Source: Segatella baroniae B14
GTDB taxonomy: Bacteria > Bacteroidota > Bacteroidia > Bacteroidales > Bacteroidaceae
Direction: 5' to 3'
Length of the DNA: 64,000 nucleotides
Assembly: GCF_022024235.1 (NCBI RefSeq)
Contig: NZ_CP091800.1
Span: 300,001-364,000, forward strand
Part shown: positions 49,372 through 64,000 of the stretch, one piece after another
Layout: every line of letters starts with the position of its first letter
How positions within the stretch are numbered: the first letter of the stretch is position 1
The notes under the pieces: model-generated
Databases searched by the model: none
Seen by the model: the letters and a program-made list of their open reading frames with translations, nothing else
What the model was told of the DNA's origin: nothing
Position numbers and translations under genes: made by a program

Positions 49372-49405
49372 CACCCAGAAAATTCAAACATTTAAATTCA
49401 AATTG

Positions 49406-49810
49406 ATGAGAAAAAACATCAAATTATTGGCAATCATGTTTGCCTTCGCAATGCAAAGTGTTACGATGTGGTCAGCTACCACTTCTATGTACCCTGTATC
49501 TCTCTCTTATCGACAAGGACCTCTGGTGGGAAACAACCCAAAGCCATCGAAAGCTCCGGCTCACTTTTGTATTCCTTTGAGCGTCGTCCTTGATGAGGAT
49601 AGTCAACAATTGTTGGTAACCGCATTAGCAGAAGGAGAATTCACATATAATATATATAATGAAAGTAATGAAATCGTCTCTCAGGGAGTCTTGAATTGTA
49701 GCAACAATGGTAGTTATGGTATCAATCTCAGATTTTGCTCCTATGGGACATATAATATCGAAGTTTCATATAATGAACATGTTTATGAGGGAACATTCAT
49801 ACTTGATTAA
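49406..49810 (+). CDS. Small secreted beta-sandwich protein, DUF3244-like
   Basis: 134 residues from the ATG after a TTG; signal peptide MRKNIKLLAIMFAFAMQSVT ending near WSA. The mature part is beta-rich with the DUF3244 pattern: PLSVVLDEDSQQLLVTAL and IYNESNEIVSQGVLN, ending YNIEVSYNEHVYEGTFIL. Function of the family is unknown; members often sit in operons with peptide-maturation or export genes and end in this short Ig-like fold. It is the first gene before the radical-SAM enzyme, 43 bp upstream, where a precursor peptide gene would be expected, but it lacks a GG leader or a Cys-rich core. Confidence 0.72.
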   Translation: MRKNIKLLAIMFAFAMQSVTMWSATTSMYPVSLSYRQGPLVGNNPKPSKAPAHFCIPLSVVLDEDSQQLLVTALAEGEFTYNIYNESNEIVSQGVLNCSNNGSYGINLRFCSYGTYNIEVSYNEHVYEGTFILD

Positions 49811-49853
49811 AAGTCCATCTTTATGATAACATAATAGAGTCGACAATATTAAT

Positions 49854-50885
49854 ATGTATCACATTGTTATTAATACCACATTGGACTGCAATTTAAGATG
49901 TTGGTATTGTTATGAAAGTAAATTCAAAGGTAGTCAGATAAAGGTTGATATCTTGGAGGCAATCAAGAAGAACATAGAACTTCATTACCACAAAGAAGCA
50001 TATGAGATTCTAAAACTTTCTTTCTTTGGCGGGGAACCTTTTATGAATTTTAAAGCAATTAAGCAGGTTTTGTCTTTTGCACAAGAATTTTGCTTGGCGA
50101 ACCGTATAAAATTGACTGCCGATTTCACGACAAACGCCACTTTAATAAATAAAAATATAGTAGACTACCTTAAGAATTTTAATTGTATGTTCCAAATAAC
50201 GCTTGACGGGAATTGTGAACAGCATAACAAAGTAAAGGTGTTAAAGGGAATTGACACATTTCAACTTGCAATAGACAATATTCATCAGATAGAAAATAAT
50301 ATTCCTGAATCTAAAATTTGGGTTCGTATAAACTATGATGCTGATACACTAAAGAACATAGACAGCATCTTTGCGAAATTGAATGATCTCAATCGCAAAA
50401 AAGTTTATATAATGCTAAGAAAAATTTGGCAAGTTCCCTCCTGTGATATATGTTCTGAAGACCTGTTGTCAGTTATACAAAAGGGTATAGACTTGGGATT
50501 TATCTTGGATTGTTACCCTTTAAATCCAAGAAGAATGTGTTTTGCAGAGTACAAAAATCAGGTATTAATCAACTTTGATGGAAAAGTTTTCAAGTGTTCA
50601 ACAATATCCGCTTTTGATGATGCACATTCTTTAGGCAAGTTAAATACGGTTGACGGTTCTATAGAATGGGAGAACAAAAAAATTCAAAGCTATGATGAGA
50701 CATTATCTTCTAAGAGGTGTGAAAACTGTCCTCTATTTGGAACTTGTTATGGAGCATGCACCCAAAAGTTATTAAAAAACAGAAATGATAATTTTTGCAT
50801 TTTGGATGGATTAGGGCTTAGCATAGAGCAATTTTTAATGTATAACTTCAAATTGAGTCTATTACACAAAAAGATTTTTGGTTAG
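49854..50885 (+). CDS. Radical SAM/SPASM peptide-maturase-like enzyme
   Basis: 343 residues. The radical-SAM cluster motif CNLRCWYC (Cys12, 16, 19) is followed by the SAM-binding LSFFGGEPFMN and FTTNATL. The C-terminal SPASM region has cysteines in RRMCFAEY, KVFKCSTI, RCENCPLFGTCYGACTQ and NFCILDG, able to hold auxiliary Fe-S clusters. Such enzymes modify ribosomal peptides (thioether, epimerisation or cross-links) or sulfatases; here the neighbouring C39 peptidase-exporter favours a peptide. The gene is AT-rich compared with the next one, suggesting a mosaic operon. It is followed 2 bp later by the outer-membrane protein gene. The substrate peptide was not found. Confidence 0.88.
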   Translation: MYHIVINTTLDCNLRCWYCYESKFKGSQIKVDILEAIKKNIELHYHKEAYEILKLSFFGGEPFMNFKAIKQVLSFAQEFCLANRIKLTADFTTNATLINKNIVDYLKNFNCMFQITLDGNCEQHNKVKVLKGIDTFQLAIDNIHQIENNIPESKIWVRINYDADTLKNIDSIFAKLNDLNRKKVYIMLRKIWQVPSCDICSEDLLSVIQKGIDLGFILDCYPLNPRRMCFAEYKNQVLINFDGKVFKCSTISAFDDAHSLGKLNTVDGSIEWENKKIQSYDETLSSKRCENCPLFGTCYGACTQKLLKNRNDNFCILDGLGLSIEQFLMYNFKLSLLHKKIFG

Positions 50886-50887
50886 CT

Positions 50888-53191
50888 ATGAGGATCTGGT
50901 TGTTATTACTGTTTGTTTTCATAAAAACAGATATTTCTGCTCAGAGCATTAAAGGTAAAATCGTTGATGAAGAGCAGGGAGCTTTGGCATTTGCCAACAT
51001 TATGCTGCTAAACCCAGCTGACTCCACTTTCGTGAGGGGGACGGTGTCGAGAGAGGACGGAACTTTCACCATTGAAACAAACAACTCTGAAGGGCTGCTC
51101 AAAGTGTCGAGCGTAGGATTTATAACAAAATATGTCAAGGCACATCAGGGAAACATAGGCGACATACAGATGCAGTCTGACTCGCAGATGCTGGGAGAAG
51201 TGACGGTAAAAGGCGAGCGACCTCACTTCCAGACTAAGGACGGCTCAATAATTGCGAATGTGGAGGGTACAGTTCTGGGCAAAATCGGTACTGCCGAGGA
51301 CGTGCTTGCTCATATTCCTGGCATCACGAAGAAACAGGGCGGTATTGAAGTATTCGGCAAAGGTACTCCCATCATCTACATCAATGGAAAGAAACTACAG
51401 GACTTGTCGGAACTTGACAGGCTAAACTCTACAGACATCAAGAACGTGGAACTGGTAACTGAACCAGGTGCAGCCTACGATGTCACCATTAATGCGGTGA
51501 TTAAAATTAAGACCATCAAGAAACTTGGCGACGGTCTGGGCGTAGCCTATCGCCAAGTGTATAGCCAAGCCCACCAAAACGGTTTACAGGAACAGATTGA
51601 CATCAACTACCGACATTACAACTTTGACCTGTTCGGCTCATTATATTATGGATTGTCTCATGGCCGCCAAGAGCAGTGGAACGACCAAACGGTGAACGGA
51701 GAACATACACTTGAACTCATTGAAGACCTTATCATCAAATCACGAAACGAGGACTTCAAGGGTACTCTCGGCTTCAATTACGACATCAACGAGCAACATT
51801 CCTTTGGAGCAACCTTCACCAGCAACACACCCACTTACAGCAAGGCTGGTTGGGTAACCAGTATGGACGTGTTAAGGGACGGAGCCAAGGCTGACAGGCT
51901 ATTAAACATTTTCAGCTACACTGGAAGAAAGCGTCCGACCAACGACATCACTGCATACTATAAAGGAAAAATCGGCAAGGTTGACATAGACTGGAACGGC
52001 GAGGCATATTACAGAAAGAACGGTAACACACAAAACTCACAAGAGACTGGAGAAACGCCAGACAGCGAACGAGCCTTGACCACACACTATGCAGCCGACA
52101 GCAGGCTATATGCATCCAAGTTAGTTTTGAGCGTACCTGTTTGGAAAGGCAACTTGCAGATTGGCAGCGAATACACGGACATCGACCGCAAGAATATCTA
52201 CCAGATAGATGCCTATGGCAATAATCTCCCGACAAGTTCGGATGATAAAATCAAAGAAAGCAATATCGCAGCCTTCGCTTCCTATACATTCACGATGAAC
52301 AAACTACATGTGGTTGGTGGTCTACGTTATGAACATGTTGTGTCAGACTATTACGACCACGATGCATATGTGGCGGAACAAAGCAAGACCTACGACAACC
52401 TATTTCCTCATCTTTCAGTCTCGTTTCCCATTAAAAACGCATCGGCAAATCTGAGTTACAACATCAAAGCACGCCGTCCGTCATATAGCATTTTGAGCAG
52501 CAACACCCAATATAACAATCGTTACACTTATCAAAGCGGCAATCCCCTTGTGCAGCCCTCATATCTCCACACAATTGCTGCAAATGTATCCTACCGATGG
52601 CTGCGCTTCTACTTCAATTGGCGGTACACAAAGGATGCTTTCTACCAGTGTGTCGAACCATACGAGAAGGACAACGAGATAACACTTTTCACATTTCGTA
52701 ACCTCTCGCACTATCAGACCATTTCCTCGGGCATTACGCTGTCGCCGAAGTTTGGCTGCTGGCACCCAATGCTTGACCTAAGCATGATGCGTCAAAATTT
52801 CTCTGCGGGGGACCGTGATTACAACAAACCTCTGTTTTTTCTGAAGTTCAACAACTCCATCCAGTTGCCCCACGACTTCATCATCAATATTGACATGGAT
52901 TATATGTCAAAAGGCCATTCTACCAATATAGAATGGGCAGAGACAGGTGGAGTAAACATTGGTATTTACAAAGGTTTCTTCAATGACAAGTTTTCTCTAA
53001 ATGTACAAGGGCGGGATTTGTTTGCCTCCTATCGCGGCTCCAACTGGATGCGCTATGGCAACAGAGACATTTACAAGTGGAACTATGCTGATACGCGGAA
53101 ACTTGTGCTCACCCTCCGCTACAAGTTCAATACTACCCGAAGCAAGTACAGGGGAGTGGGTGCAGGTATTGATGAAAAGAAGCGATTATAA
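50888..53191 (+). CDS. Outer membrane beta-barrel protein with carboxypeptidase-regulatory-like domain (copy 1)
   Basis: 767 residues; signal peptide to about 18, then a CarboxypepD_reg-like domain (IKGKIVDEEQGALAFANIML), a plug-like segment (VLAHIPGITKKQGGIEVFG, then GTPIIYINGKKL) and a beta-barrel of the OMP_b-brl_3 type (NLSYNIKARRPSYSILSS). It is shorter than SusC and has no SusD partner. In this cluster it may form the outer-membrane exit or receptor for an exported peptide. The stop overlaps the ATG of the C39-ABC gene by 1 bp. It is richer in G and C than the radical-SAM gene. Confidence 0.87.
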   Translation: MRIWLLLLFVFIKTDISAQSIKGKIVDEEQGALAFANIMLLNPADSTFVRGTVSREDGTFTIETNNSEGLLKVSSVGFITKYVKAHQGNIGDIQMQSDSQMLGEVTVKGERPHFQTKDGSIIANVEGTVLGKIGTAEDVLAHIPGITKKQGGIEVFGKGTPIIYINGKKLQDLSELDRLNSTDIKNVELVTEPGAAYDVTINAVIKIKTIKKLGDGLGVAYRQVYSQAHQNGLQEQIDINYRHYNFDLFGSLYYGLSHGRQEQWNDQTVNGEHTLELIEDLIIKSRNEDFKGTLGFNYDINEQHSFGATFTSNTPTYSKAGWVTSMDVLRDGAKADRLLNIFSYTGRKRPTNDITAYYKGKIGKVDIDWNGEAYYRKNGNTQNSQETGETPDSERALTTHYAADSRLYASKLVLSVPVWKGNLQIGSEYTDIDRKNIYQIDAYGNNLPTSSDDKIKESNIAAFASYTFTMNKLHVVGGLRYEHVVSDYYDHDAYVAEQSKTYDNLFPHLSVSFPIKNASANLSYNIKARRPSYSILSSNTQYNNRYTYQSGNPLVQPSYLHTIAANVSYRWLRFYFNWRYTKDAFYQCVEPYEKDNEITLFTFRNLSHYQTISSGITLSPKFGCWHPMLDLSMMRQNFSAGDRDYNKPLFFLKFNNSIQLPHDFIINIDMDYMSKGHSTNIEWAETGGVNIGIYKGFFNDKFSLNVQGRDLFASYRGSNWMRYGNRDIYKWNYADTRKLVLTLRYKFNTTRSKYRGVGAGIDEKKRL

Positions 53192-55386
53192 TGAAAAGAT
53201 TTCCATTCTTCAGACAATCGGATGCAATGATGTGCGGTATCACCTGTCTTCAGATGATATGCAAATACTATGGTAAGAGGTATAATCAAAATTTTTTATC
53301 TGGTATATGTTGCGCGTCTAAAGAAGGGGTATCCCTTCTTGGCATCAGAGACGCAGCCGTTAAAATTGGATTATATACTATTAGTGGTCGTTTAACTATA
53401 GATGAACTATCCTCAGCAACATTACCGTGTATTCTTCACTGGAACCAGAATCACTTTGTTGTTTTATATAAGGTGAAGAAAAGACAAAAGTTCTATATAG
53501 CCGACCCAGGAAAAGGACTGATAACTTACACTATGGATGAGTTCAAACAGCATTGGATAGGAACGGGTCGAGACAACGAGGGTAAAGGAATCGCCATGTT
53601 TCTTGAACCAACTCAGGCTTTTTACGATAATACCAACGAACATGAAACACGAACAGAAAAGCCGTTCAAGTTCTTATTCGGCTATATCAAGCAATACCGT
53701 AAGTATTTCTTCCAGATAATACTTGGCTTGCTTGTTGGAAGCCTTCTACAACTTGCATTGCCATTCCTTACCCAGAACATCGTCGATATTGGCATTAAGA
53801 ACAAAGATATAAGTTTCATCTGGCTAATATTGATAGGGCAACTTGTCATCACACTCAGCCGGACATCGGTTGATTTTATCCGTAGGTGGCTCTTGCTGCA
53901 TATCTCCATGCGCATCAATATCTCACTGGTAAGCGACTTCTTCATTAAGTTGCTTCAACTTCCCATGTCGTTCTTCGACACAAAGCTGATGGGTGACTTG
54001 ATGCAGCGTATCGGTGATCATTCACGGGTTAACTCATTCCTGACACAGCAGACGTTAAATGTGGTTTTTTCCCTTATCAGTTTTGCTGTGTTCGGTTGTG
54101 TGCTGTTGGTCTATAACAGGCTCATCTTCTTAATATTTCTTATTGGAAGTATTCTGTATGGTGGATGGATGGCACTGTTTTTGCGCCGTCGTAAGGTTAT
54201 TGACTATGAGTTGTTTGAGCAACAAGCTATCAATAACAATAAGACATACCAGTTTCTCACTTCCATGCAAGAAATAAAGTTGCAAGACTGCGAACAGCGC
54301 AGACGATGGGAATGGGAGGATGTACAGGCAGACTTGTTCCACATTCAGATGAAGAGTCTGAAACTCCAACAAGCGCAGGAGGCAGGAAGCATTTTTATTA
54401 ATGAATTGAAGAATATCATCATAACTGTCGTTTCGGCTACTGCAGTCATTAATGGAAGCCTTACACTTGGTATGATGCTGGCCGTGCAGTATATAATAGG
54501 TCAGTTGAACAGCCCCATAGAGCAACTTATGCATTTCATATACTCCATACAGGATGTAAAGATAAGCCTTGAGCGCATCAATGAGATTCACAAAAAGGAC
54601 AATGAAGAAGATTACAATCGTTCAAGAGCAGAGTTTGACAATGAAAGTCATGATATAGAATTGAGCAATATTGACTTCAAATATGATCCTCATGCCCTGT
54701 CGAAGACCATTGAGGGCGTGAACATACATATCCCAGAGGGGAAAATCACAGCCATCGTGGGGGCATCAGGAAGTGGCAAGACCACACTGATAAAACTCAT
54801 GCTGGGGTATTACCCGGTAATGAATGGTGAAATAATGATTGCTGGGCACAACATTTCCGAATATAACTTGAAATGGTGGCGACGGCAATGTGGTGTTGTC
54901 ATGCAAGATGGTGTCATATTCTCTGAATCTATTGCAAGGAATATTGCGGTTGATGATGGCGAGATAGATGAGGAAAGACTTGAAATGGCTGCCGAAATCG
55001 CTAATGTCAAAGACTTTGTTATGGCTCTCCCGTTGAAGTTCAATACAAACATTGGAAGGGACGGAATGGGATTAAGCCAAGGTCAGAAGCAGCGTATCTT
55101 GATTGCTCGCGCAGTGTATAAGAATCCGAAGTTCATCTTCCTTGATGAAGCGACAAATTCTTTGGATGCAAGCAATGAACGTGCCATCGTTGAGAATCTG
55201 GATAAGTTCTATATAGATAAGACAGTCATAGTAGTAGCGCATCGTCTGAGTACAGTAAAGAATGCTGACCAGATCATCGTCTTGGATAAGGGCAAGGTGG
55301 TTGAGACTGGAAATCACAAGTCCCTGACAGCAAAGAGAGGAACGTATTATAATCTTGTTAAAAACCAGTTGGAATTAGGAAATTAA
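53191..55386 (+). CDS. Peptidase-containing ABC transporter (C39 bacteriocin-processing exporter)
   Basis: 731 residues: C39 cysteine peptidase (1-140; Cys15 in MMCGITCLQ, His88 in NQNHFV, Asp105 in YIADPG), six-helix membrane domain (about 160-430), and ATPase (Walker A GASGSGKTT, signature LSQGQKQR, Walker B FIFLDEATNSLD, His in VVAHRLS). Such PCAT proteins cut a leader, usually after Gly-Gly, and export the peptide. From residue 51 to 353 the gene is nearly identical to the truncated copy at 59728; the first ~45 residues around the catalytic Cys are very different. Full-length and apparently functional. Confidence 0.95.
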   Translation: MKRFPFFRQSDAMMCGITCLQMICKYYGKRYNQNFLSGICCASKEGVSLLGIRDAAVKIGLYTISGRLTIDELSSATLPCILHWNQNHFVVLYKVKKRQKFYIADPGKGLITYTMDEFKQHWIGTGRDNEGKGIAMFLEPTQAFYDNTNEHETRTEKPFKFLFGYIKQYRKYFFQIILGLLVGSLLQLALPFLTQNIVDIGIKNKDISFIWLILIGQLVITLSRTSVDFIRRWLLLHISMRINISLVSDFFIKLLQLPMSFFDTKLMGDLMQRIGDHSRVNSFLTQQTLNVVFSLISFAVFGCVLLVYNRLIFLIFLIGSILYGGWMALFLRRRKVIDYELFEQQAINNNKTYQFLTSMQEIKLQDCEQRRRWEWEDVQADLFHIQMKSLKLQQAQEAGSIFINELKNIIITVVSATAVINGSLTLGMMLAVQYIIGQLNSPIEQLMHFIYSIQDVKISLERINEIHKKDNEEDYNRSRAEFDNESHDIELSNIDFKYDPHALSKTIEGVNIHIPEGKITAIVGASGSGKTTLIKLMLGYYPVMNGEIMIAGHNISEYNLKWWRRQCGVVMQDGVIFSESIARNIAVDDGEIDEERLEMAAEIANVKDFVMALPLKFNTNIGRDGMGLSQGQKQRILIARAVYKNPKFIFLDEATNSLDASNERAIVENLDKFYIDKTVIVVAHRLSTVKNADQIIVLDKGKVVETGNHKSLTAKRGTYYNLVKNQLELGN
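53341..54249 (+). repeat. Duplicated C39-ABC segment, copy 1
   Basis: 909 bp matching 59878-60786 at about 97% with no net length change. Identity is highest after about 53620; the 5' 150 bp of the two genes are strongly diverged. Confidence 0.93.
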
Positions 55387-55397
55387 ACAATAGGAAT

Positions 55398-55550
55398 ATG
55401 GCTAAAGATTTTGAGAAGAAAGATATCCGAAGCGATAAAGTTCGCAACATCATGATGGAGAAACCACCAGTATTAATTCGATATGGTATGGCAATAATAG
55501 CAACTTTATTAGTTGCTGTGGCTTTTGTTGCTTTCTACATTATAAGGTGA
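55398..55550 (+). CDS. 50-residue single-span membrane protein (HlyD N-terminus-like)
   Basis: Starts MAKDFEKKDIRSDKVRNIMM, then EKPPVLIRYGMAIIATLL and VAVAFVAFYIIR before the stop. The IRSDKVRNIM...PP.LIRYG pattern is how Bacteroidota HlyD-type periplasmic adaptors begin, with the same single helix, but the periplasmic coiled coil and lipoyl parts are missing. AGGA precedes the ATG by a few bases and it follows the exporter by 11 bp. Either it is a genuine stand-alone accessory subunit of the exporter or what is left of an adaptor gene. No HlyD remains are visible downstream, which favours a stand-alone subunit. Confidence 0.7.
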   Translation: MAKDFEKKDIRSDKVRNIMMEKPPVLIRYGMAIIATLLVAVAFVAFYIIR

Positions 55551-55627
55551 ACAAAATTGATATGTAAAATATAACAGACTCCGGAACTCTGTAAAACAGA
55601 CTAGACTGGATAAAAAACAAATATTAT

Positions 55628-56107
55628 ATGACTGTATATAATGAAGAAAAGGCGTTATATTCCGATACATCTAATATATATATAGCTCGATACGATCATA
55701 AAATGATAGGATCTATAAGAGTTTTCAAATGGGATAGAAAAAAAGAACTTCCAATAGAAAGGATGTATGGTATAAATCCTTTAGAGGCAATATCTCATGA
55801 AAAATATGCGGAATATTGGCATATAGGAAGATTTGCAATTGATTCATCTATTGGTATTTCTCCTGTTCATTTATTTAAGCAACTCATGATTTATGCTGTA
55901 ACGCCTATAATGAAAAGCGAATATGGATATATGGTGGCGGAAGTTGATGCTAAATTGTTGAAAGTTGTCAATGCATTAGGTATTCATTCTATTAATTTGG
56001 GGGAATCAATATACTATCTATCCTCAGAGACTATCCCAATATATGCAAGCCAGAAAGGGATAACTCCCTTTTATCAACATTATCTAGGATTGTGTAATTC
56101 TGCATGA
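55628..56107 (+). CDS. Autoinducer-synthase-like / N-acyl amino acid synthase-like acyltransferase
   Basis: 159 residues of the GNAT-related fold shared by LuxI-type and FeeM-type acyltransferases. Points of resemblance: IYIARYDHKMIGSIRVFKW (the G.iR strand), LPIERMYGIN, and YWHIGRFAID (compare W-E-x-S-R-F in LuxI proteins), then MVAEVDAKLLKVVNALGI. It probably joins a fatty acyl group to an amino acid, amine or peptide. In this setting it could make a diffusible signal or lipidate the exported peptide. A second, N-terminally truncated copy lies at 60788-61093. Both stop codons run into the first of two palindromes at the next promoter. Family assignment is by eye; the exact product is unknown. 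Confidence 0.68.
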   Translation: MTVYNEEKALYSDTSNIYIARYDHKMIGSIRVFKWDRKKELPIERMYGINPLEAISHEKYAEYWHIGRFAIDSSIGISPVHLFKQLMIYAVTPIMKSEYGYMVAEVDAKLLKVVNALGIHSINLGESIYYLSSETIPIYASQKGITPFYQHYLGLCNSA

Positions 56108-56192
56108 TTACCCAAAAGGGTAATTGTTGAGCATAACAATTGCTAATTACCCTATTGGGTAGTGGAAATAATAAAAACATTAAGTATTTTTG
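56107..56192 (+). promoter_or_regulatory. Tandem palindromic operator and promoter of the GLPGLI unit
   Basis: Palindrome 1, ATTACCC-AAAA-GGGTAAT (56107-56124), overlaps the acyltransferase stop. Palindrome 2, ATTACCC-TATT-GGGTAG (56146-56163), begins 39 bp after the first. The -7 box TATTTTTG is at 56185-56192, 30.5 bp from the centre of palindrome 2. The site near -45 suits an activator. Same geometry at 61093-61178. Confidence 0.75.
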
Positions 56193-56221
56193 CAAACGAA
56201 AAAGTAAATACATAATATTAA

Positions 56222-56308
56222 ATGGAATACATGATTTCAATAATACAATATGTATTATCCGCTTACAAAATAAGTGGAAAAAGAAATGACATCTATAATA
56301 TAATTTAA
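56222..56308 (+). CDS. Possible 28-residue leader peptide
   Basis: An open frame beginning MEYMISIIQYVLSAYKISGK about 23 nt after the expected transcript start of the palindrome-controlled promoter. No clear ribosome site and no GG or Cys motif. It could be a leader or signal peptide, or chance; no counterpart follows the second palindrome pair. Confidence 0.22.
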   Translation: MEYMISIIQYVLSAYKISGKRNDIYNII

Positions 56309-56339
56309 TAAGTACTGCTAATCATCTTTAATGTATCAA

Positions 56340-56378
56340 TTGGGTACCCTCATTATTTAATAACATGAGAGTACCCAA
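56340..56378 (+). other. Leader hairpin just upstream of the GLPGLI gene
   Basis: 14-nt arms (TTGGGTACCCTCAT and ATGAGAGTACCCAA, one mismatch) with an 11-nt loop, ending 20 nt before the ATG. There is no T-run, so it may control translation or protect the mRNA. Confidence 0.55.
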
Positions 56379-56398
56379 CATAAAAAAACAATACATAA

Positions 56399-57175
56399 AT
56401 GAAGAATTATATATTATTAACTCTGATTATGCTTGTGAAGGTGGGACTTGTTTCAAAGCTCTCAGCTCAAAGTACAACCCCTATAGAATCATCTATATTA
56501 GAAGTTAGATACATAGTTACGCATAAAAGTGATAAAGATATGTTTGTCCTTCGTTGCGGAAAGAACGTAAGCCAGTATTTCAGCGTTGGCAAATTACGGG
56601 ATGATTCGCTCCGTGCATCACCAGACCCGACAGTCAGCCAGATACCATTGAACGAGATGATGGAAGAGGCCATGCACCGCGATGACCCCAGCAAACGGCG
56701 TCCAAGTTCGCCCTGTCATAGTGACTACTTGTATTGGAATCTATCGGTAGGCAAGGTGTCGGTTTATACCAGTGTATTTGGTAGCAAATATGTTATTGAG
56801 GAAGAAACGCCAACGATGGATTGGGAAATCTACGAGGATTCTGTGCGGACTATTATCGGCTATGAGTGCCACAAGGCCGTTACGAAGTTTCGTGGCAGAG
56901 AGTGGGCTGTATGGTATGCTGATGGAATCCCAGTGAGCCTTGGGCCGTGGAAACTGAACGGACTGCCAGGAATCATATTGCAGGCAGAATGTGATGGCTA
57001 CATGAAGATAAATGCTTGTGGCATCATAACCAGCGACCTTTCGCCCGTCACGTTCTACAACTTTGCGGAATATAAATTTCAGCCTGTAGAGCGCAAGAAG
57101 TTGCTGAAGATGAAAATGAATCCCAACTTCTATCCTGCAAATACGAAGATAACCCCAACGATGGAACTGGAATGA
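56399..57175 (+). CDS. GLPGLI family protein
   Basis: 258 residues with signal peptide (ending LSAQS). The family-defining segment is WYADGIPVSLGPWKLNGLPG, followed by IIL. The preceding RTIIGYECHKAVTKFRGREW is also typical. These Bacteroidota proteins are envelope-associated with unknown function; they are usually encoded directly before a TonB-type outer-membrane protein with a carboxypeptidase-regulatory domain, as here (4-bp overlap ATGA with the next gene). First gene of the unit controlled by the tandem palindromes. Confidence 0.9.
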   Translation: MKNYILLTLIMLVKVGLVSKLSAQSTTPIESSILEVRYIVTHKSDKDMFVLRCGKNVSQYFSVGKLRDDSLRASPDPTVSQIPLNEMMEEAMHRDDPSKRRPSSPCHSDYLYWNLSVGKVSVYTSVFGSKYVIEEETPTMDWEIYEDSVRTIIGYECHKAVTKFRGREWAVWYADGIPVSLGPWKLNGLPGIILQAECDGYMKINACGIITSDLSPVTFYNFAEYKFQPVERKKLLKMKMNPNFYPANTKITPTMELE

Positions 57176-59721
57176 AGCGACACCTTATCATTATATTATG
57201 CTGTCTCTTTCCGTTTTTGGCAATGGCGCAGATGCGGATAATGGGAACGGTCACCGACAAAAACGGTGATCCGTTGACGGGTGCCATCATCCAAGTGCGC
57301 AGCAATAGCACGAATAAGATGATACGCTTTGGCAAGACCGATAGCAAAGGCTCGTTCTCCATTGAAGCAAATGCCGATAGTTATCTGGAAGTCTCGATGC
57401 TTGGATTCAAGAAACAGCGCATTGATAATCTGTCAAACGAGAAACCGTTGAGAATAGTGATGCAGGAGGAAAGCGTAACATTGAAGGAGGTGACCGTCAA
57501 GGCAAGTAAGGTACGTGAGCATGGCGACACGCTGACATACAACGTGGCGACCTTTGCCGACCAGAACGACTGCAACATCGGCGATGTGCTTTCCCGCATC
57601 CCTGGTTTCGAGGTGAACAAGCAGAACGGACAGATCAAGTATGAGGGTAAGCCCATCAGTAAGTTCTATATTGAGGGACTGGATATGTTAGGAGATAAGT
57701 ACGGCATAGCCACCAACTCACTGCCACAGGTGGATGTGGGCTCCGTGCAGGTGATGAGAAACCATCAATCCATCCGTGTGCTGGAGGACTTCACCTATAC
57801 CGACGAGGCGGCAGTGAATATCCGTATGAAGGAGGGAGCCAAGAGCCATTGGGTGACGTCGTTCAACGGAGGGGCAGGCATCAGCAGCCATACAGGGTTA
57901 TGGAAATTCGAGGGCTTTGGTCTGCGGTTGAAGTCAGATTTCCAGACCATGCTCACCTACAAGACCAACAACACGGGGCAGGACATCAGCAAGGAAACAA
58001 CGAGTCTATTCAACTTCGACGATTTGGAAAGTCAAGGCGACTATATCCAACTGTCACCGCCTACGACACCCAACCTTGCCGAAAGCCGCACCATGTTCAA
58101 CCGCAGCCATGCCGTCACGCTCAACACACTGAAACGGTTTAATGAGTCGTCGCAGATGAACGTACAGATAATCTATAACAACAACCGCGAAACGGCAGAG
58201 GGTGAAAGGCGCACGGAGTATTTCCTGCCAGACGGTAACCGCATCATCGACAATCGCAAGGACTATCTGCAAAAGGTCAACGAACTATATGCACTGGTGA
58301 AGTATGAGCGCAACAGCACCAACCAATATCTGAAGAACTCGCTTTCGGAAGATTTCACATGGAGCCGCCAGTGGCTTAATGAGTCGGGGTCATCCAACCA
58401 TAATCAGTTTGCCCGCAAGCCCGAATACGATATCAAGGACAATCTGTATATCATCCGCAAGTACGGCAACCGCCTTGTTTCGTTCTATTCCAATAACCGC
58501 ATCATCAGCCGTCCGCAGTCATTGTCCGTAGATTCACTTTATCAGTACATTAGCAGTCAGCGATACAGCACCGACACCTATGCTATGGGTGGTATCAAAC
58601 TCGGACGATTCAGCCTCTCACTCAAAGCGGGTGTGAATGCAGCCTTGCATCGTCTGGAGTCTGATCTGACAGGACTTCCCGACACCATCGGACAGTTGGC
58701 AGATAACAGCCGTTTCTCTTTTGCCCGCATCTATATGCAGCCGAATATAACCTACAAGACGCGCGACATTAATGTGGAACTCAGCCCTACAACGGAATAC
58801 CTTTACGAGAAATACAGCCACGACAACGGTCATCACCAAATGCTCTTCATGCCAGACCTCAGCATCCGATGGTATGTCACGCCCCGTCTGCGTCTTTCGT
58901 TGGGTGGTTCTGCGTCCGTGGAGCCTTTGGATGCTAGTCGTTTCTACCGTTCACTGGTATTGCAGGACTTCCAGTATATCAACCGAGGATATGCGGGCTA
59001 TCGGCATAGCCATACGCAGGCAATCCGTGGCGGCATCAACTATAACGATGCACTGAAGGCCCTGCACACCATTTTGACCGTATCGCGTACTTTCAGCACC
59101 TCGCCCTACACACCGACACGCCAGTTCGTGGGCGATTACATCATCCTCTCTGCTGTAGAGCAGGAAAGCAAGTCTGACTCTTGGCAAGCCAACCTGATAG
59201 CCAGCAAGGGCATCAACCTCTGGAATGGCGTTGTCAATCTCCGTGCCTTGTATCTTAACAGCGATGCCTCGATGCTTCAAAACGGAATAATGACCGACTA
59301 CAACAGTCAGATGCTCAACGTCCGCGCAGGTCTCGACTTCTCTTTTTGGAAGGATATGCATCTGCGCTATGGCCTCACGTTCAATCAGAGCCGTATGCAA
59401 ATCCAGTCGATGGATTATTCGCTGAAAACTGACGGCTGGAAGCAAGACCTCTCCATCATCATTCCTGTAAGCCCGTTCACTATCGACCTCCGAGGCGAGT
59501 ATTACCGCAACGAGATTACCAGCGGAAATTACAAAGACTTCTTTCTGGCTGACATCAAAGCCAGTTACAAGTCAAAGCGTCTTGATCTCACTCTCTCGCT
59601 CAACAATCTGCTGAACCGTGACACCTATTCATACGTCATCACCAGCGACCTCACCAGCAGCACCTCCACTAACCGCATTCGTGGACGCGAGTTGTTTTTT
59701 TCAGTATATTATAAGTTATAA
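57172..59721 (+). CDS. Outer membrane beta-barrel protein, TonB-receptor-like (copy 2)
   Basis: 849 residues; signal peptide ending AMAQM, CarboxypepD_reg-like domain (IMGTVTDKNGDPLTGAIIQV), plug-like region (LSRIPGFEVNKQNGQIKYEG, then FYIEGLDMLGDKYGI) and a large barrel ending in an aromatic-rich strand (FFSVYYKL). It is the standard partner of GLPGLI proteins. It is related in plan, not closely in sequence, to the barrels at 50888 and 61272. GC-rich compared with the AT-rich exporter gene 6 bp downstream. Confidence 0.88.
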   Translation: MKRHLIIILCCLFPFLAMAQMRIMGTVTDKNGDPLTGAIIQVRSNSTNKMIRFGKTDSKGSFSIEANADSYLEVSMLGFKKQRIDNLSNEKPLRIVMQEESVTLKEVTVKASKVREHGDTLTYNVATFADQNDCNIGDVLSRIPGFEVNKQNGQIKYEGKPISKFYIEGLDMLGDKYGIATNSLPQVDVGSVQVMRNHQSIRVLEDFTYTDEAAVNIRMKEGAKSHWVTSFNGGAGISSHTGLWKFEGFGLRLKSDFQTMLTYKTNNTGQDISKETTSLFNFDDLESQGDYIQLSPPTTPNLAESRTMFNRSHAVTLNTLKRFNESSQMNVQIIYNNNRETAEGERRTEYFLPDGNRIIDNRKDYLQKVNELYALVKYERNSTNQYLKNSLSEDFTWSRQWLNESGSSNHNQFARKPEYDIKDNLYIIRKYGNRLVSFYSNNRIISRPQSLSVDSLYQYISSQRYSTDTYAMGGIKLGRFSLSLKAGVNAALHRLESDLTGLPDTIGQLADNSRFSFARIYMQPNITYKTRDINVELSPTTEYLYEKYSHDNGHHQMLFMPDLSIRWYVTPRLRLSLGGSASVEPLDASRFYRSLVLQDFQYINRGYAGYRHSHTQAIRGGINYNDALKALHTILTVSRTFSTSPYTPTRQFVGDYIILSAVEQESKSDSWQANLIASKGINLWNGVVNLRALYLNSDASMLQNGIMTDYNSQMLNVRAGLDFSFWKDMHLRYGLTFNQSRMQIQSMDYSLKTDGWKQDLSIIIPVSPFTIDLRGEYYRNEITSGNYKDFFLADIKASYKSKRLDLTLSLNNLLNRDTYSYVITSDLTSSTSTNRIRGRELFFSVYYKL

Positions 59722-59727
59722 TACTAT

Positions 59728-60831
59728 ATGAAAAAGATACACTATATTAAGCAATATGACAGTATGAAATGCGGGATCGCATGCCTACAAATGATATGTG
59801 CGTATCATGGAAGGACATTTTGTCAGGATTATCTTTCGAATATTTGTTTTGCAACTACTGAAGGTGTGTCCCTTCTCGGCATCAGAGACGCAGCCGTTAA
59901 AATTGGATTATATACTATTAGTGGTCGTTTAACTATAGACGAGCTATCCTCAGCAACGTTACCATGTATCCTGCACTGGAATCAGAACCATTTTGTTATT
60001 TTATATAAGGTAAAGAAAGGACAAAAGTTCTATATAGCCGACCCAGGAAAAGGACTGATAACTTACACTATGGATGAGTTCAAACAGCATTGGATTGAAA
60101 CGGGGCAAGGAGAAGATGAAAAAGGAATTGCCATGTTTCTTGAACCTACACAGGCTTTTTACGATAACACCAACGAACATGAAACACGAACAGAAAAGCC
60201 GTTCAAGTTCTTATTCGGCTATATCAAGCAATACCGTAAGTATTTCTTCCAAATAATACTTGGCTTGCTTGTTGGAAGCCTTCTACAACTTGCATTGCCA
60301 TTCCTTACCCAGAACATTGTCGATATTGGCATTAAGAACAAAGATATAAGTTTCATCTGGCTAATATTGATAGGGCAACTTGTCATCACACTCAGCCGGA
60401 CATCGGTTGATTTTATCCGTAGGTGGCTCTTGCTGCATATCTCCATGCGCATCAATATCTCACTGGTAAGCGACTTCTTTATTAAGTTGCTTCAACTTCC
60501 TATGTCGTTCTTCGACACAAAGCTGATGGGTGACTTGATGCAGCGTATCGGTGATCATTCACGGGTTAACTCATTCCTGACACAGCAGACGTTAAATGTG
60601 GCTTTTTCCCTTATCAGTTTTGCTGTGTTCGGTTGTGTGCTGTTGGTCTATAACAGGCTCATCTTCTTAATATTTCTTATTGGAAGTATTCTGTATGGTG
60701 GATGGATGGCACTGTTTTTGCGCCGTCGTAAGGTTATTGACTATGAGTTGTTTGAGCAACAAGCTATCAATAACAATAAGACATACAAAATATGCGGAAT
60801 ATTGGCATATTGGACGCTTTGCTATTGCTAA
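59728..60831 (+). pseudogene. Truncated C39-peptidase ABC transporter (copy 2)
   Basis: 367 codons. The C39 peptidase is complete (Cys15 in SMKCGIACLQ, His88 in NQNHFV, Asp105 in YIADPG) with a distinct N-terminal 45 residues. The membrane domain is cut after NNNKTY, inside the fourth or fifth helix region, and the frame ends 14 codons later in sequence belonging to the second acyltransferase gene. The ATPase is missing entirely. Compared with copy 1, about 1.55 kb (54250-55801 equivalents) have been lost. It cannot export by itself; an isolated peptidase function is conceivable. In an assembly, the near-identity of the two copies makes a collapse artefact possible. Confidence 0.85.
59878..60786 (+). 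repeat. Duplicated C39-ABC segment, copy 2
   Basis: Partner of 53341-54249. Identity stops abruptly at 60786, the deletion junction. Confidence 0.93.
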
Positions 60832-61093
60832 AGATTCGGGAATATCTACATTGACTTTGTTCAAGCGGTTAATGGCATTGGCTGTAAAGCCGATAGTAGA
60901 GGACAAGTACAGTTATATGATTGCAGAGATTGACAGCAAACTATTGAAAGTAATGAAGGTCTTGGGATTTGGCACACGCCAAATAGGAAAATCCATAGAC
61001 TACCTGACATCGGAGACCGTTCCTGTATGTTCCAGTAAAAGAGGTATCAAGGGTTTCTTTTCAAAGTATGGTGAACTTTGCAAGGCTGTATGA
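60788..61093 (+). pseudogene. Acyltransferase copy 2, N-terminally truncated
   Basis: 101 codons corresponding to residue 59 onward of the intact copy: KYAEYWHIGRFAIAKDSGIS, then YSYMIAEIDSKLLKVMKVLG and the C-terminus. The first 58 residues, containing the G.iR strand, are gone. The frame is open upstream into the exporter fragment but in a different phase from the exporter's own frame, so no fusion protein is made unless an internal start is used. Sequence is about as diverged from copy 1 as expected for a distinct substrate or specificity, unlike the near-identical exporter part. Confidence 0.82.
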
Positions 61094-61178
61094 TTACACT
61101 TTTGTGTAATATTTAAGCCAATAAACTTAGAATTACACTTTTGTGTAGTGAAAAGATTTGGAGAAGACAATACATTTG
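61093..61178 (+). promoter_or_regulatory. Tandem palindromic operator and promoter of the third barrel gene
   Basis: Palindrome 1, ATTACAC-TTTT-GTGTAAT (61093-61110), overlaps the acyltransferase stop. Palindrome 2, ATTACAC-TTTT-GTGTAG (61132-61149), begins 39 bp later. The -7 box TACATTTG is at 61171-61178. Distances are identical to those at 56107-56192, but all half-sites are TTACAC rather than TTACCC. Confidence 0.75.
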
Positions 61179-61202
61179 CAACATCGAAAGACAAGAAAAG
61201 TT

Positions 61203-61224
61203 GTCGGCATATCATGATGCCGAC
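61203..61224 (+). other. Leader hairpin upstream of the third barrel gene
   Basis: 8-bp perfect stem GTCGGCAT/ATGCCGAC with a 6-nt loop, between the predicted transcript start and the ATG. Confidence 0.5.
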
Positions 61225-61271
61225 TCCAAAATTATAATAAGACAATGCATATAATAAATAAGATAATGTTT

Positions 61272-63566
61272 ATGAAAAAGGAACTTCTCACATTGCTCAT
61301 GTCTGGCTGCTCCGGTATCCTTGTTGCACAAACTACGGGAACGGTAGTAGATGAAAACAAGCAACCATTACCAGCTGCAACGGTTTCGTTATTTCGTGAA
61401 AGCGAAAATAAGATGATTAGTGGAGTGGTAACTGATATAAATGGCGGCTTTGAACTGAATACGCATGAAGGAGAGAACTATAGAATAAGGATATCCTTTG
61501 TAGGGTATTCTACGCAGGAAGTTAAATGCCAAAACATTTCTAAACACCTATCGTTGGGTACAATAGTGTTGGAACCGGACAGTAAGATGCTTAATGGTGT
61601 AACCGTGACAGCCAATAGCGTAACACAAAAAACTGACCGACAAATTATCATCCCTAATCAGCTTCAGCGAAAAACATCAAGCAATGGTTTAGGTTTGTTG
61701 CAGCATCTTCAGCTTTCACGCATCTCAGTAAATACGCTTGACAGTAAGGTAACTACTACTATGGGGGATGCCGTAGAATTGCGTATTAATGGCGTAAAGG
61801 CGGAGATACAGGAGGTGAAGGCTCTCCTGCCGGCAGATGTATTGAAAATAGAATATCATGATAATCCTGGTCTAAGATACGGAAATGTAGCTGCCGTAAT
61901 TGACATTATTTTAAAGGAAAAGAAGAATGGAGGAAGCATCTCCGGAGAGTTGATGAACACTATCAATCCTTTAGGTATAGGAGATTATCAGCTATCGGGT
62001 AATTATCATGTAGGTAATTCAAACTTCAAGGCATCTGTAAACTGGAATCGGCGTAATGTAAACTGGTTACGTGAAAACATGGAGGCCTTCAATGCAACGA
62101 CACCCGGTATCAGCAACTATGAGATAGGGCAAAAGACAAAGGCACGATACGATAACATCAATCTATCCATTGGCTACGATTACATACATAGCGGAAACAT
62201 ATTGAGTGTTACTTTTCGTGATTTATATAACAATACCCCTCATGCGGTATCTGACAGAAACTCCAGGCTTATTCAGGCCAGCAACACATTCGATATCAAG
62301 GACCGCACCAAGTCAAGGAGCAACAATCCATCGTTAGATATTTATTATCAGCATGAGTTTACCAAGGATAGGCATCTGTTCTTTGACCTGATAGGAACAT
62401 ATATCTATACTAAAAACGACCGTTTATATCGCCAATCTCAGGGGAATGCTGTGCAGGAAATAACTTCCCATGTCGATGGGAATAAATATTCGGCCATAGC
62501 TGAAGTTATTTACGAGCAGAAAATCAAGGATTCGCGGTTGTCATTCGGTCTGCGACATCAGCAGATGTACACAAAAAACGCATATGATGGAAACACATCC
62601 TCAAGCGTTAAGATGAATACAGCTGAGAGTTATGCTTTTGGAGAATGGGCTTCAACGTTAGGGAAACTGGATTATACGGTAGGTATTGGTGTAATGAGGA
62701 CCTATGCCAGCCAAGGAAATGCAAAACAGGTAAAATATATATTTCGCCCGACTATTCAGCTGGGATACCGTTTCAACAATTATCTGTCAATACGCTACAA
62801 AGCCTACATGGGAGGGTACGCACCCTCACTTGCCGAATTAAGCGATGTTGAACAGCACATAGACATTTACCAAATACGCCGTGGAAATCCAAATCTACAG
62901 GCGGTCAGTTTTTTCTCTAATGAACTATCAATTAGCGTAGGAACAAAGTATATCAGTGCAGAATGGTTTACCCGTTACAGCTATGACAACAAGCCATATA
63001 TGGAAGAAACAATCTACACGAATGGCCTCTATGTTAGGAGTTATGCCAATCAAAGAGGCTTCCATCGACTGAACTCTCAAATAAATCTAAAAATACGACC
63101 TTGGAAGGATTATATATCCATTCAATTAGCCCCATTTGTCAATCGCTATATCAGTAATGGCAATACTTATACGCATGCACATACCAACTGGGGGGTACGC
63201 GCCAACTTAATGGGAATGTACAAGAATTGGTACATAGGAGCCAATCTTGAGACAAGTTTTCATAGCCTGTGGGGGGAGACACTTAACAAAAATGAGAAAT
63301 CACATAGTATAGTCTTTGGGTACAATAGAGAAAAATGGGGTATAGAACTCCAGTTGCAGAACATCTTCAGTTCACGTTATGAAATGTCTGTAGAAAATTT
63401 TTCCCACCTTGCTCCTTACAATCAAATGGTATGGTCGAGAAATCTATGTAAAGTTTTCGGCATAGACTTTCATTTCAACCTGAACTTTGGAAAGCATGGC
63501 TCTGAGGTGAACCAACGTATTCATAACTCTGATACTGATGCAGGCATTGTGCCAACAACGAAGTAG
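61272..63566 (+). CDS. Outer membrane beta-barrel protein with carboxypeptidase-regulatory-like domain (copy 3)
   Basis: 764 residues from MKKELLTLLMSGCSGILVAQ; the longer frame upstream lacks a signal peptide. CarboxypepD_reg-like domain (TGTVVDENKQPLPAATVSLF), a plug-like region (LQHLQLSRISVN; VELRINGVKAE; LPADVLKIEYHDNPGLRYGN) and a barrel of the OMP_b-brl_3 kind. Controlled by the second palindrome pair. It converges on the LuxR-type gene, 62 bp apart. With the barrels at 50888 and 57172 it makes three in one cluster, each likely to serve a different exported or sensed molecule. Confidence 0.86.
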   Translation: MKKELLTLLMSGCSGILVAQTTGTVVDENKQPLPAATVSLFRESENKMISGVVTDINGGFELNTHEGENYRIRISFVGYSTQEVKCQNISKHLSLGTIVLEPDSKMLNGVTVTANSVTQKTDRQIIIPNQLQRKTSSNGLGLLQHLQLSRISVNTLDSKVTTTMGDAVELRINGVKAEIQEVKALLPADVLKIEYHDNPGLRYGNVAAVIDIILKEKKNGGSISGELMNTINPLGIGDYQLSGNYHVGNSNFKASVNWNRRNVNWLRENMEAFNATTPGISNYEIGQKTKARYDNINLSIGYDYIHSGNILSVTFRDLYNNTPHAVSDRNSRLIQASNTFDIKDRTKSRSNNPSLDIYYQHEFTKDRHLFFDLIGTYIYTKNDRLYRQSQGNAVQEITSHVDGNKYSAIAEVIYEQKIKDSRLSFGLRHQQMYTKNAYDGNTSSSVKMNTAESYAFGEWASTLGKLDYTVGIGVMRTYASQGNAKQVKYIFRPTIQLGYRFNNYLSIRYKAYMGGYAPSLAELSDVEQHIDIYQIRRGNPNLQAVSFFSNELSISVGTKYISAEWFTRYSYDNKPYMEETIYTNGLYVRSYANQRGFHRLNSQINLKIRPWKDYISIQLAPFVNRYISNGNTYTHAHTNWGVRANLMGMYKNWYIGANLETSFHSLWGETLNKNEKSHSIVFGYNREKWGIELQLQNIFSSRYEMSVENFSHLAPYNQMVWSRNLCKVFGIDFHFNLNFGKHGSEVNQRIHNSDTDAGIVPTTK

Positions 63567-63628
63567 CAGATAAATATAAATTCACGTACAAGATAAAGAG
63601 GATGTCGAAAATCTTTGTTGGTTATAAT

Positions 63629-64000
63629 TTACAACAATCCGTAGCTTGTAGCGTATGATAATGCTTCTGTGATATTTTTTACACCTAACTTGTCAAAAAG
63701 GTTGCGTCTATAGAATTTAATTGTATCTACAGACTTGCACATGTGATCGGCTATCTCGTCACGGTTAAATCCTTGTGCCGACAAAACCAATACATCTTTT
63801 TCTTCGGAAGTTAGTTCTATTTTCTCTTTTTCTTTCCATTTGTGTGAGAGACGAGAATACTCCCATATACGATCATCGCCAGACATACGGAATTCTATGT
63901 GTCCTGCGGAAGTGTGAGGTGATAATGAGACAACACATAACCCTAACCATGTCCTTCCATCTTCCGTCATAACGAGAGGAGTTATCTTATGATTGATTAA
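63629..64000 (-). CDS. LuxR-type HTH transcriptional regulator, C-terminal part
   Basis: The frame is open to the window edge, so the N-terminus lies beyond it. Visible: the end of a sensory domain (TPLVMTEDGRTWLGLCVVSL, then GHIEFRMSGDDRIWEYSR), then a GerE/LuxR DNA-binding domain (LTSEEKDVLVLSAQGFNRDE, then IADHMCKSVDTIKFYRRNLF, DKLGVKNITEAL). Members of this Bacteroidota type usually have about 230-250 residues. As the only LuxR-type protein visible next to the acyltransferase/palindrome modules it is one candidate for the palindrome-binding activator, alongside the TPR-HTH protein at 47335. This link is inference. Confidence 0.85.
   Translation of the reverse strand, partial: LINHKITPLVMTEDGRTWLGLCVVSLSPHTSAGHIEFRMSGDDRIWEYSRLSHKWKEKEKIELTSEEKDVLVLSAQGFNRDEIADHMCKSVDTIKFYRRNLFDKLGVKNITEALSYATSYGLL

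Follow-up and report, generated by a model that had tools for sequence, protein, structure and literature searches.

Does a cell that carries the ends of two signal-synthase-like genes, each running into a pair of palindromes ahead of a promoter, still send a signal, or can it only answer one? This question is raised by a stretch of 64,000 nucleotides from Segatella baroniae B14 (NCBI RefSeq assembly GCF_022024235.1, contig NZ_CP091800.1, positions 300,001 to 364,000, forward strand), the whole of which was analysed and is called the window here. An earlier note on this DNA had singled out 55628-61178 (window coordinates, unless stated otherwise) as two modules, each with a LuxI/FeeM-like acyltransferase gene, palindromes and a promoter. 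Comparing the DNA and its predicted proteins with those of relatives, we read this region as, most probably, a decayed, chimeric, receptor-only response locus of the N-acyl-cyclolysine (ACL) type. The sequence shows operators, promoter boxes and a regulator gene with an open frame; the synthase genes are truncated, a cyclase gene was not detected, and the DNA comes from two source lineages.

The earlier note had likened the modules to a cell-cell signalling circuit, which was right in kind, as a synthase-like gene, a LuxR-type regulator and an operator before export and outer-membrane genes are all found. Its remark that such circuits are not well described in Bacteroidota has been overtaken: the circuit agrees with the N-acyl-cyclolysine system described in 2025, and a passage of a 2026 review (PMC13419125) credits the discovery of these molecules in Bacteroidota to Linares-Otoya et al. 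(Nature 2025) and describes the system as widespread in human gut and oral samples. Because the fit is close, we take the circuit as already known. The system reportedly works by lysine acylation, ATP-dependent cyclisation, a dedicated transcription factor (AclR) and autoinduction, with control of co-localised operons. Shared with it are an acyltransferase of the LuxI/FeeM kind, a ThiF/E1-like enzyme, a dedicated regulator and operators before each, with further operators ahead of neighbouring operons for secreted or surface products. The window differs in having acyltransferase stubs, no ThiF gene that could be found, a mixture of two lineages' operator types and one regulator.

Operators, remnants and regulator at the locus

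Both acyltransferase frames end in an 18-bp palindrome. The last base of the stop codon (TGA at 56105-56107 and at 61091-61093) is the first base of palindrome 1 (56107-56124 and 61093-61110), and palindrome 2 starts 39 bp further on at both sites (56146 and 61132). Operator pair 1 thus occupies 56107-56163 and operator pair 2 occupies 61093-61149, both on the forward strand. Between the centre of palindrome 2 and a TAnnTTTG -7 box lie 30 bases, placing the centre 30.5 bp ahead of the box, which reads TATTTTTG at 56185-56192 and TACATTTG at 61171-61178. The half-sites are TTACCC in pair 1 (ACCC type) and TTACAC in pair 2 (ACAC type). The coordinates bear out the earlier note on the shared stop codons, the 39-bp spacing, the box offset and the half-sites. 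Its two operator pairs are real, and a third pair, of ACCC type, lies beyond the window end, at window coordinates 64446 and 64485, where it adjoins the regulator gene. Allowing up to 3 mismatches, the paired pattern was matched 4 times in the window (2 sites, each counted on both strands); 100 shuffles gave a mean of 0.00. Searched with no mismatches and 39-bp spacing, the whole genome (3.63 Mb, 2 contigs) had 3 matching places (contig positions 356109, 361095 and 364447) and none for the reversed pattern. The spacing of 39 and the box offset of 30 are kept at all three pairs.

The acyltransferase genes are of the LuxI/FeeM-like kind that the earlier note had named, but neither is complete. 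Against a family model of 208 positions, remnant 1 (55628-56107, forward strand, 159 residues) matches positions 50-207 and lacks ~50 N-terminal residues, while remnant 2 (60787-61093, forward strand) matches positions 103-207 and is fused to a truncated ABC-transporter gene that is read in a different frame. The part missing from both holds F27, V29, N32, H35 and H36, which are invariant in 42 aligned full-length acyltransferases. No intact copy was found elsewhere in the genome; only the two remnants were matched by remnant 1 as query (E 1) or by the 42-row model (E 1e-5), and the intact LuxI/FeeM-like acyltransferase required in an ACL system is represented by these remnants only. A search for the cognate ThiF in the genome gave three weak matches at E 1 (the best with 35% identity over 141 residues, E 1e-16; another with 43% over 80 residues), and none with the family model at E 1e-40. 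The ThiF/E1-like cyclising enzyme required in an ACL system was not found by either search. The window is not a full ACL member, since these two defining genes were tested and are not present intact.

The kind of enzyme was assessed on the predicted structure of the intact relative at locus L069 of uncultured Prevotella RUG126 (pLDDT 94.5), taking the first 50 PDB matches. FeeM (2g0b) had the highest template modelling (TM) score among the matches listed, 0.61/0.69, and the N-acyl homoserine lactone (AHL) synthases TofI, LasI, MesI and BjaI also matched, all of these with E < 1e-6. The predicted fold would place the intact relative in the FeeM/LuxI branch of the GNAT fold. A sequence search of the PDB with the acyltransferase gave no match, a plasmid collection searched with 55628-56200 gave none either, and 12 pattern matches in the viral contigs searched included no relative.

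The two modules are, on their DNA alignments, pieces matching two different acl lineages, one with ACCC and one with ACAC operators. Remnant 1 and its operator (55628-56200) have 90% DNA identity to the 3′ part of the acyltransferase and the operator at L069, a locus where ThiF and a 209-residue acyltransferase are present, and the regulator with its upstream operator (63617-64506) has 96% identity to the same locus. Remnant 2, the ACAC operator and the outer-membrane gene behind it (60802-63616) have 93% identity to loci of P. vespertina (L076), H. timonensis (L072), P. histicola (L074) and P. ihumii (L079). The L069-type and ACAC-lineage alignments abut at 63616/63617. Paralogous duplication of the modules in place was rejected, because their DNA matches lie in different lineages. 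A real near-duplicate does exist in the transporter segment, 53227-54249 and 59764-60786, at 93%; the second copy belongs to a truncated C39-peptidase ABC transporter gene (59728-60786, forward strand), joined to remnant 2, and the first to the intact gene 53191-55386.

The AclR-like regulator, a PAS-like sensor with a LuxR-type HTH, is encoded on the reverse strand at 63629-64000, and its gene extends to window coordinate 64387 as an intact frame of 252 residues. Its sensor part is 99% identical over 185 columns to that of the regulator at L069, which is a full cassette. It is the one cognate regulator found in the genome; the five other matches have E 5e-8 or worse. The sole domain passing a Pfam cut-off is the C-terminal GerE HTH, and no autoinducer-binding domain was found by Pfam cut-offs or fold matches. 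The fold search used a model of the near-identical L069 regulator; its first PDB matches were 3clo (TM 0.44) and VqmA (TM 0.30-0.35 by query length), each of which combines a sensor with a LuxR-type HTH. Single PAS domains and LuxR-type HTH domains came lower, and RhlR and CviR appeared from rank 30 on only, with low scores. Of the components required in an ACL system, the dedicated PAS-LuxR regulator beside operators is present.

Operator geometry across Bacteroidota

A GTDB scan with a ThiF alignment kept the best 80 of 317 loci. They come from Bacteroidales, Flavobacteriia, one Cytophagales record and one record labelled Candidatus Zambryskibacteria (L104, QILQ01000022.1). The regulator of this last record falls inside the Flavobacteria group of the tree, and the bin label is therefore probably wrong. 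The cassette order is ThiF/E1-like gene (+), regulator (-) and acyltransferase (+). A regulator match was found at 76 of the 80 loci, and a full-length acyltransferase at 58; a further 7 had fragments only, 9 had none despite room, and 6 were cut by contig ends. In one of the 9 (L088) a short piece of the acyltransferase N terminus is present, which escaped the model search. At six loci where ThiF and the regulator are present and no acyltransferase was matched (L055, L068, L085, L089, L092 and L097), a large outer-membrane-looking gene comes after the regulator's operators, and for one of them, L085 of Hoylesella timonensis S9-PR14, a full cassette lies on another contig (L072). In several of the loci found in the family with the paired pattern (below), the cassette is followed by what looks by eye like genes of the radical SAM, outer-membrane, C39 ABC-transporter and HlyD-like kinds.

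Palindromes of the form nnACnCN4GnGTnn, counted as a pair when 36-42 bp apart, were concentrated in particular regions of these loci. Between regulator and acyltransferase they occurred in 64 of 73 regions, 46 of them as a pair, against 18 of 1460 random windows and 0 pairs. Downstream of the acyltransferase they occurred in 48 of 58 regions (28 as a pair), against 17 of 1160 random windows (1 pair). Upstream of ThiF, 58 of 79 regions had palindromes, against 17 of 1580 random windows; pairs were rare there (2/79; random windows 3/1580), and the sites are thus mostly single. Of the pairs in the first two kinds of region, 53 were spaced at 39 bp and 20 at 38 bp. TAnnTTTG stood at an offset of exactly 30 in 45/64, 39/48 and 45/58 of the palindrome-bearing regions, in the order regulator-acyltransferase, after acyltransferase and before ThiF. 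The window genome's three pairs share this arrangement of palindromes 38-39 bp apart with TAnnTTTG after 30 bases. A dimer site so placed before a -7 box is in the usual position of a class II activator.

Another search covered 399 genomes of the family with the paired pattern and a looser gap of 11-31 bases. It gave 9 matches in 7 genomes, against 1 for the reversed control, and 6 of the 9 lie immediately behind an acyltransferase. The other 3 (G336, G059 and G206) are in genomes with no acyltransferase match and look like chance. The palindromes and their spacing, which the earlier note had described at this one locus, recur across acl loci, and the geometry goes with this acyltransferase family phylum-wide. 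With so exact a geometry, genes under ACL-type control could be found from sequence alone.

Receptor-only genomes and a possible half-site specificity

Among the 399 family genomes, 27 had a regulator match of at least 250 bits (59 at E 1e-15). A ThiF match was found in 13 of these 27 and no ThiF match in 14; a full-length acyltransferase was present in 9, remnants or broken copies only in 3 (G000, G205, G002) and none in 15. All 14 genomes with no ThiF match also had no intact acyltransferase, and 7 of the 14 have a completeness of at least 90%. Genes may be missed in draft assemblies: in G271 and G045 the regulator is at a contig end, and G234, counted as having no acyltransferase, is 65% complete. 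Several lone regulators adjoin a palindrome pair and an outer-membrane-looking gene. In G056, a 2-contig genome with a lone regulator, there is a partial copy of the outer-membrane gene of the window's ACAC lineage (91% DNA identity over 1278 bp). These counts indicate that receptor-only genomes are frequent, and eavesdropping or cheating in Bacteroidota signalling thereby becomes a testable question.

The earlier note took the covarying half-sites as a mark of regulators with different specificity, and proposed paralogous activators at the duplicated modules, each with its own site. The latter did not hold up, as the modules match two acl lineages and only one cognate regulator was found in the genome. 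The former fits an association with Arg or Lys at residue 227 (column 226 in trimmed alignment numbering), which is Arg in the recognition helix of the window regulator, but is unproven. Both operator pairs of this regulator's own lineage are ACCC.

Across 57 distinct Bacteroidales-type regulators, the residue-227 column came second among 206 columns in how well it accounts for the C share at the variable position of the half-site; the top-ranked column looks overfitted, being an N-terminal position with 14 residue types. The mean C share was 0.08 for the 48 rows with Lys and 0.67 for the 9 with Arg. When all 77 rows including Flavobacteria were used, the column ranked fifth. With lone regulators added (91 rows), Arg went with mainly ACCC sites in 10 rows and not in 25, and Lys in 0 and not in 56; when the cut was set at one half, 17 Arg and 2 Lys rows counted as ACCC. 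Rows with fewer than 2 counted half-sites, identical proteins and fragments were dropped (L105 and L036 had no counted half-sites; G073 and G222 had no usable site). The 25 Arg rows that are not mainly ACCC have mixed, ACAC or ACTC sites and comprise 20 Flavobacteria-group rows plus L125, L102, L094, G361 and G346, which suggests that Arg may allow ACCC rather than require it. It may also be that the single regulator acts at the ACAC operator (61093). Supported branches gave only 3-4 independent pairs in the 91 rows, of which on average 1.3 of 3 agreed and none were opposite, the rest showing no difference. The link between residue and half-site was not significant once relatedness was allowed for, and with this few pairs relatedness alone could account for it. 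The suggested one-residue specificity switch is directly testable.

Competing readings and neighbouring genes

In intact relatives, the signal would be a lysine acylated and cyclised by the acyltransferase and the ThiF/E1-like enzyme, in line with the chemistry reported in 2025. The PAS-LuxR regulator would sense it, and ligand-bound dimers would bind the palindromes 38-39 bp apart, the second of which, 30 bases before the -7 box, may sit roughly in place of a -33 element. Binding would activate expression of the acyltransferase gene together with that of the secretion/outer-membrane operon downstream. At the S. baroniae locus, what remains after an apparent recombination between an ACCC-type locus (near that of uncultured Prevotella RUG126) and an ACAC-type locus (near those of P. 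vespertina and others) is a pair of acyltransferase 3′ stubs, one intact ACCC-lineage regulator, two ACCC operator pairs and one ACAC pair; a ThiF gene was not detected. Given the stubs and the lack of a detectable ThiF gene, the cell probably makes no such signal and keeps the response half. It may turn on its outer-membrane genes upon neighbours' signals, and cargo operons may move by recombination within the acyltransferase gene. A fuller version of this scheme is tentative: the locus would be a working listener with an operator code, in which Arg or Lys at 227 sets ACCC versus ACAC and separates the acl circuits of one cell, while cargo moves by acyltransferase recombination that leaves stub, operator and promoter as a ready-made signal-controlled cassette.

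Several points weigh against reading the locus as a receptor-only ACL-type one. The ACL name is taken from a review passage (PMC13419125) and from what the 2025 paper reportedly describes. Pfam FeeM (PF21926) stays below its cut-off of 27 for remnant 1 (24.9 bits) and three intact relatives (23.5, 18.7 and 18.7 bits), and ordinary GNAT enzymes outrank FeeM by E-value in the L069 fold search, with other GNATs having similar or better values. Whole-chain fold scores of the regulator are low (TM at most 0.44 for 3clo and VqmA). The operator pattern was built from the same loci in which it was counted, which makes the counts partly circular, and it was unmatched in 9/73, 10/58 and 21/79 of the regions between regulator and acyltransferase, after the acyltransferase and before ThiF. 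A match that speaks for it, at 301 bits, is that of the ThiF protein from the window's source lineage to PDB 9egb, 9egc and 9egd, though taking these to be structures of the 2025 ACL paper is our assumption.

Decay may also have gone further than the synthesis genes, leaving the regulator's output and every other part a non-functional relic of acl shuffling. The two acyltransferase stubs, the truncated ABC transporter, the repeated fragments at 64446-65071 and a 50-residue open reading frame (ORF) at 55399-55551, which resembles the start of a membrane ORF of 154-159 residues in relatives, would all suit such a dead locus. We consider this possible but doubtful, as the regulator frame is intact with a sensor part 99% identical to that of a full-cassette regulator, all three operator pairs keep the spacing of 39 and the offset of 30, and the large outer-membrane ORFs are still open. 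That the regulator answers another ligand or none, and does not eavesdrop on ACLs, is unlikely in our view: lone regulators are frequent (of the 27 strong-regulator genomes, 14 have neither a ThiF match nor an intact acyltransferase), and their ligand could have drifted, but the sensor domain here is nearly identical to one in a complete cassette.

It is very improbable that remnant 1 is a still active acyltransferase making a simpler signal. Its 159-residue frame is open and largely retains the C-terminal family motifs in the alignment, but it lacks the N-terminal FVVxENYxHH block, with the 5 residues invariant in 42 sequences, and its match to L069 starts precisely at the ATG, as would be expected of a junction. 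We give hardly any credence to the idea that a different regulator binds the palindromes, for instance the TPR-HTH protein encoded at 47335-49113. That gene lies upstream in the same window, but at acl loci it is the PAS-LuxR gene that palindromes adjoin, in 64 of 73 regions.

A receptor-only ACL-type locus also has parallels in other known systems. It shares a GNAT-type synthase fold, a LuxR-type HTH and a palindrome close upstream of the promoter with LuxR/LuxI AHL quorum sensing. It differs in the PAS-like sensor, the E1-like gene in the cassette and the Pfam Autoind_synth score, which is 15.1 bits for the intact L069 relative against a cut-off of 24, with no listing for remnant 1. As in LuxR solos, an intact receptor lies beside operators and likely targets with no intact synthase found in the genome; here, however, the receptor is of the Bacteroidota PAS-LuxR family and synthase stubs persist beside the operators. 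VqmA, the PAS-LuxR receptor of DPO in Vibrio, has the same two-domain architecture and is among the top fold matches, with a low whole-chain TM, but differs in ligand and DNA site. FeeM, an N-acyl amino acid synthase, is the nearest named Pfam family as well as the fold match with the highest TM among those listed; it differs in showing 14-17% identity in fold matches and a score below the Pfam cut-off, and here the enzyme is paired with ThiF and a regulator. In the literature searched, only the review PMC13419125 and PMC12561686, which cites the same DOI, concerned the system, and PMC12565237 did not bear on it. Neither the operator geometry nor the Arg/Lys association was found in print in the literature searched, which excluded the primary 2025 paper.

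Behind operator 1, the first large gene (56399-57175, forward strand) encodes a GLPGLI-family protein (TIGR01200, 136.1 bits against a cut-off of 50). It is followed by a gene for an outer-membrane-type protein with an N-terminal CarboxypepD_reg domain (57172-59721, forward strand). The cargo of the ACAC lineage is another outer-membrane-type protein with this N-terminal domain (61245-63566, forward strand). Upstream, the gene run 49403-55551 comprises a DUF3244-like small protein, a radical SAM/SPASM enzyme, an outer-membrane protein, the intact C39 ABC transporter and the 50-residue ORF, whose longer counterparts in relatives look HlyD-like by eye. A TAACTTTG box stands ahead of this run, where no palindrome pair of the operator kind was found, and on the opposite strand beside it the TPR-HTH protein has a weak BT3442-family match.

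The sequence after operator 1 (56108-56301) recurs after the third operator (64446-64639) at 91%, as if an acyltransferase had been lost between two operators at that site. Parts of the gene 57172-59721 (58645-58949 and 59607-59721) are also repeated past the third operator, at 64659-65071 (98% and 90%), which again points to local shuffling. A 28-residue ORF (56223-56309) is the earliest ATG frame noted after operator 1, and its start recurs in a longer frame after the third operator, at window coordinate 64560, outside the window.

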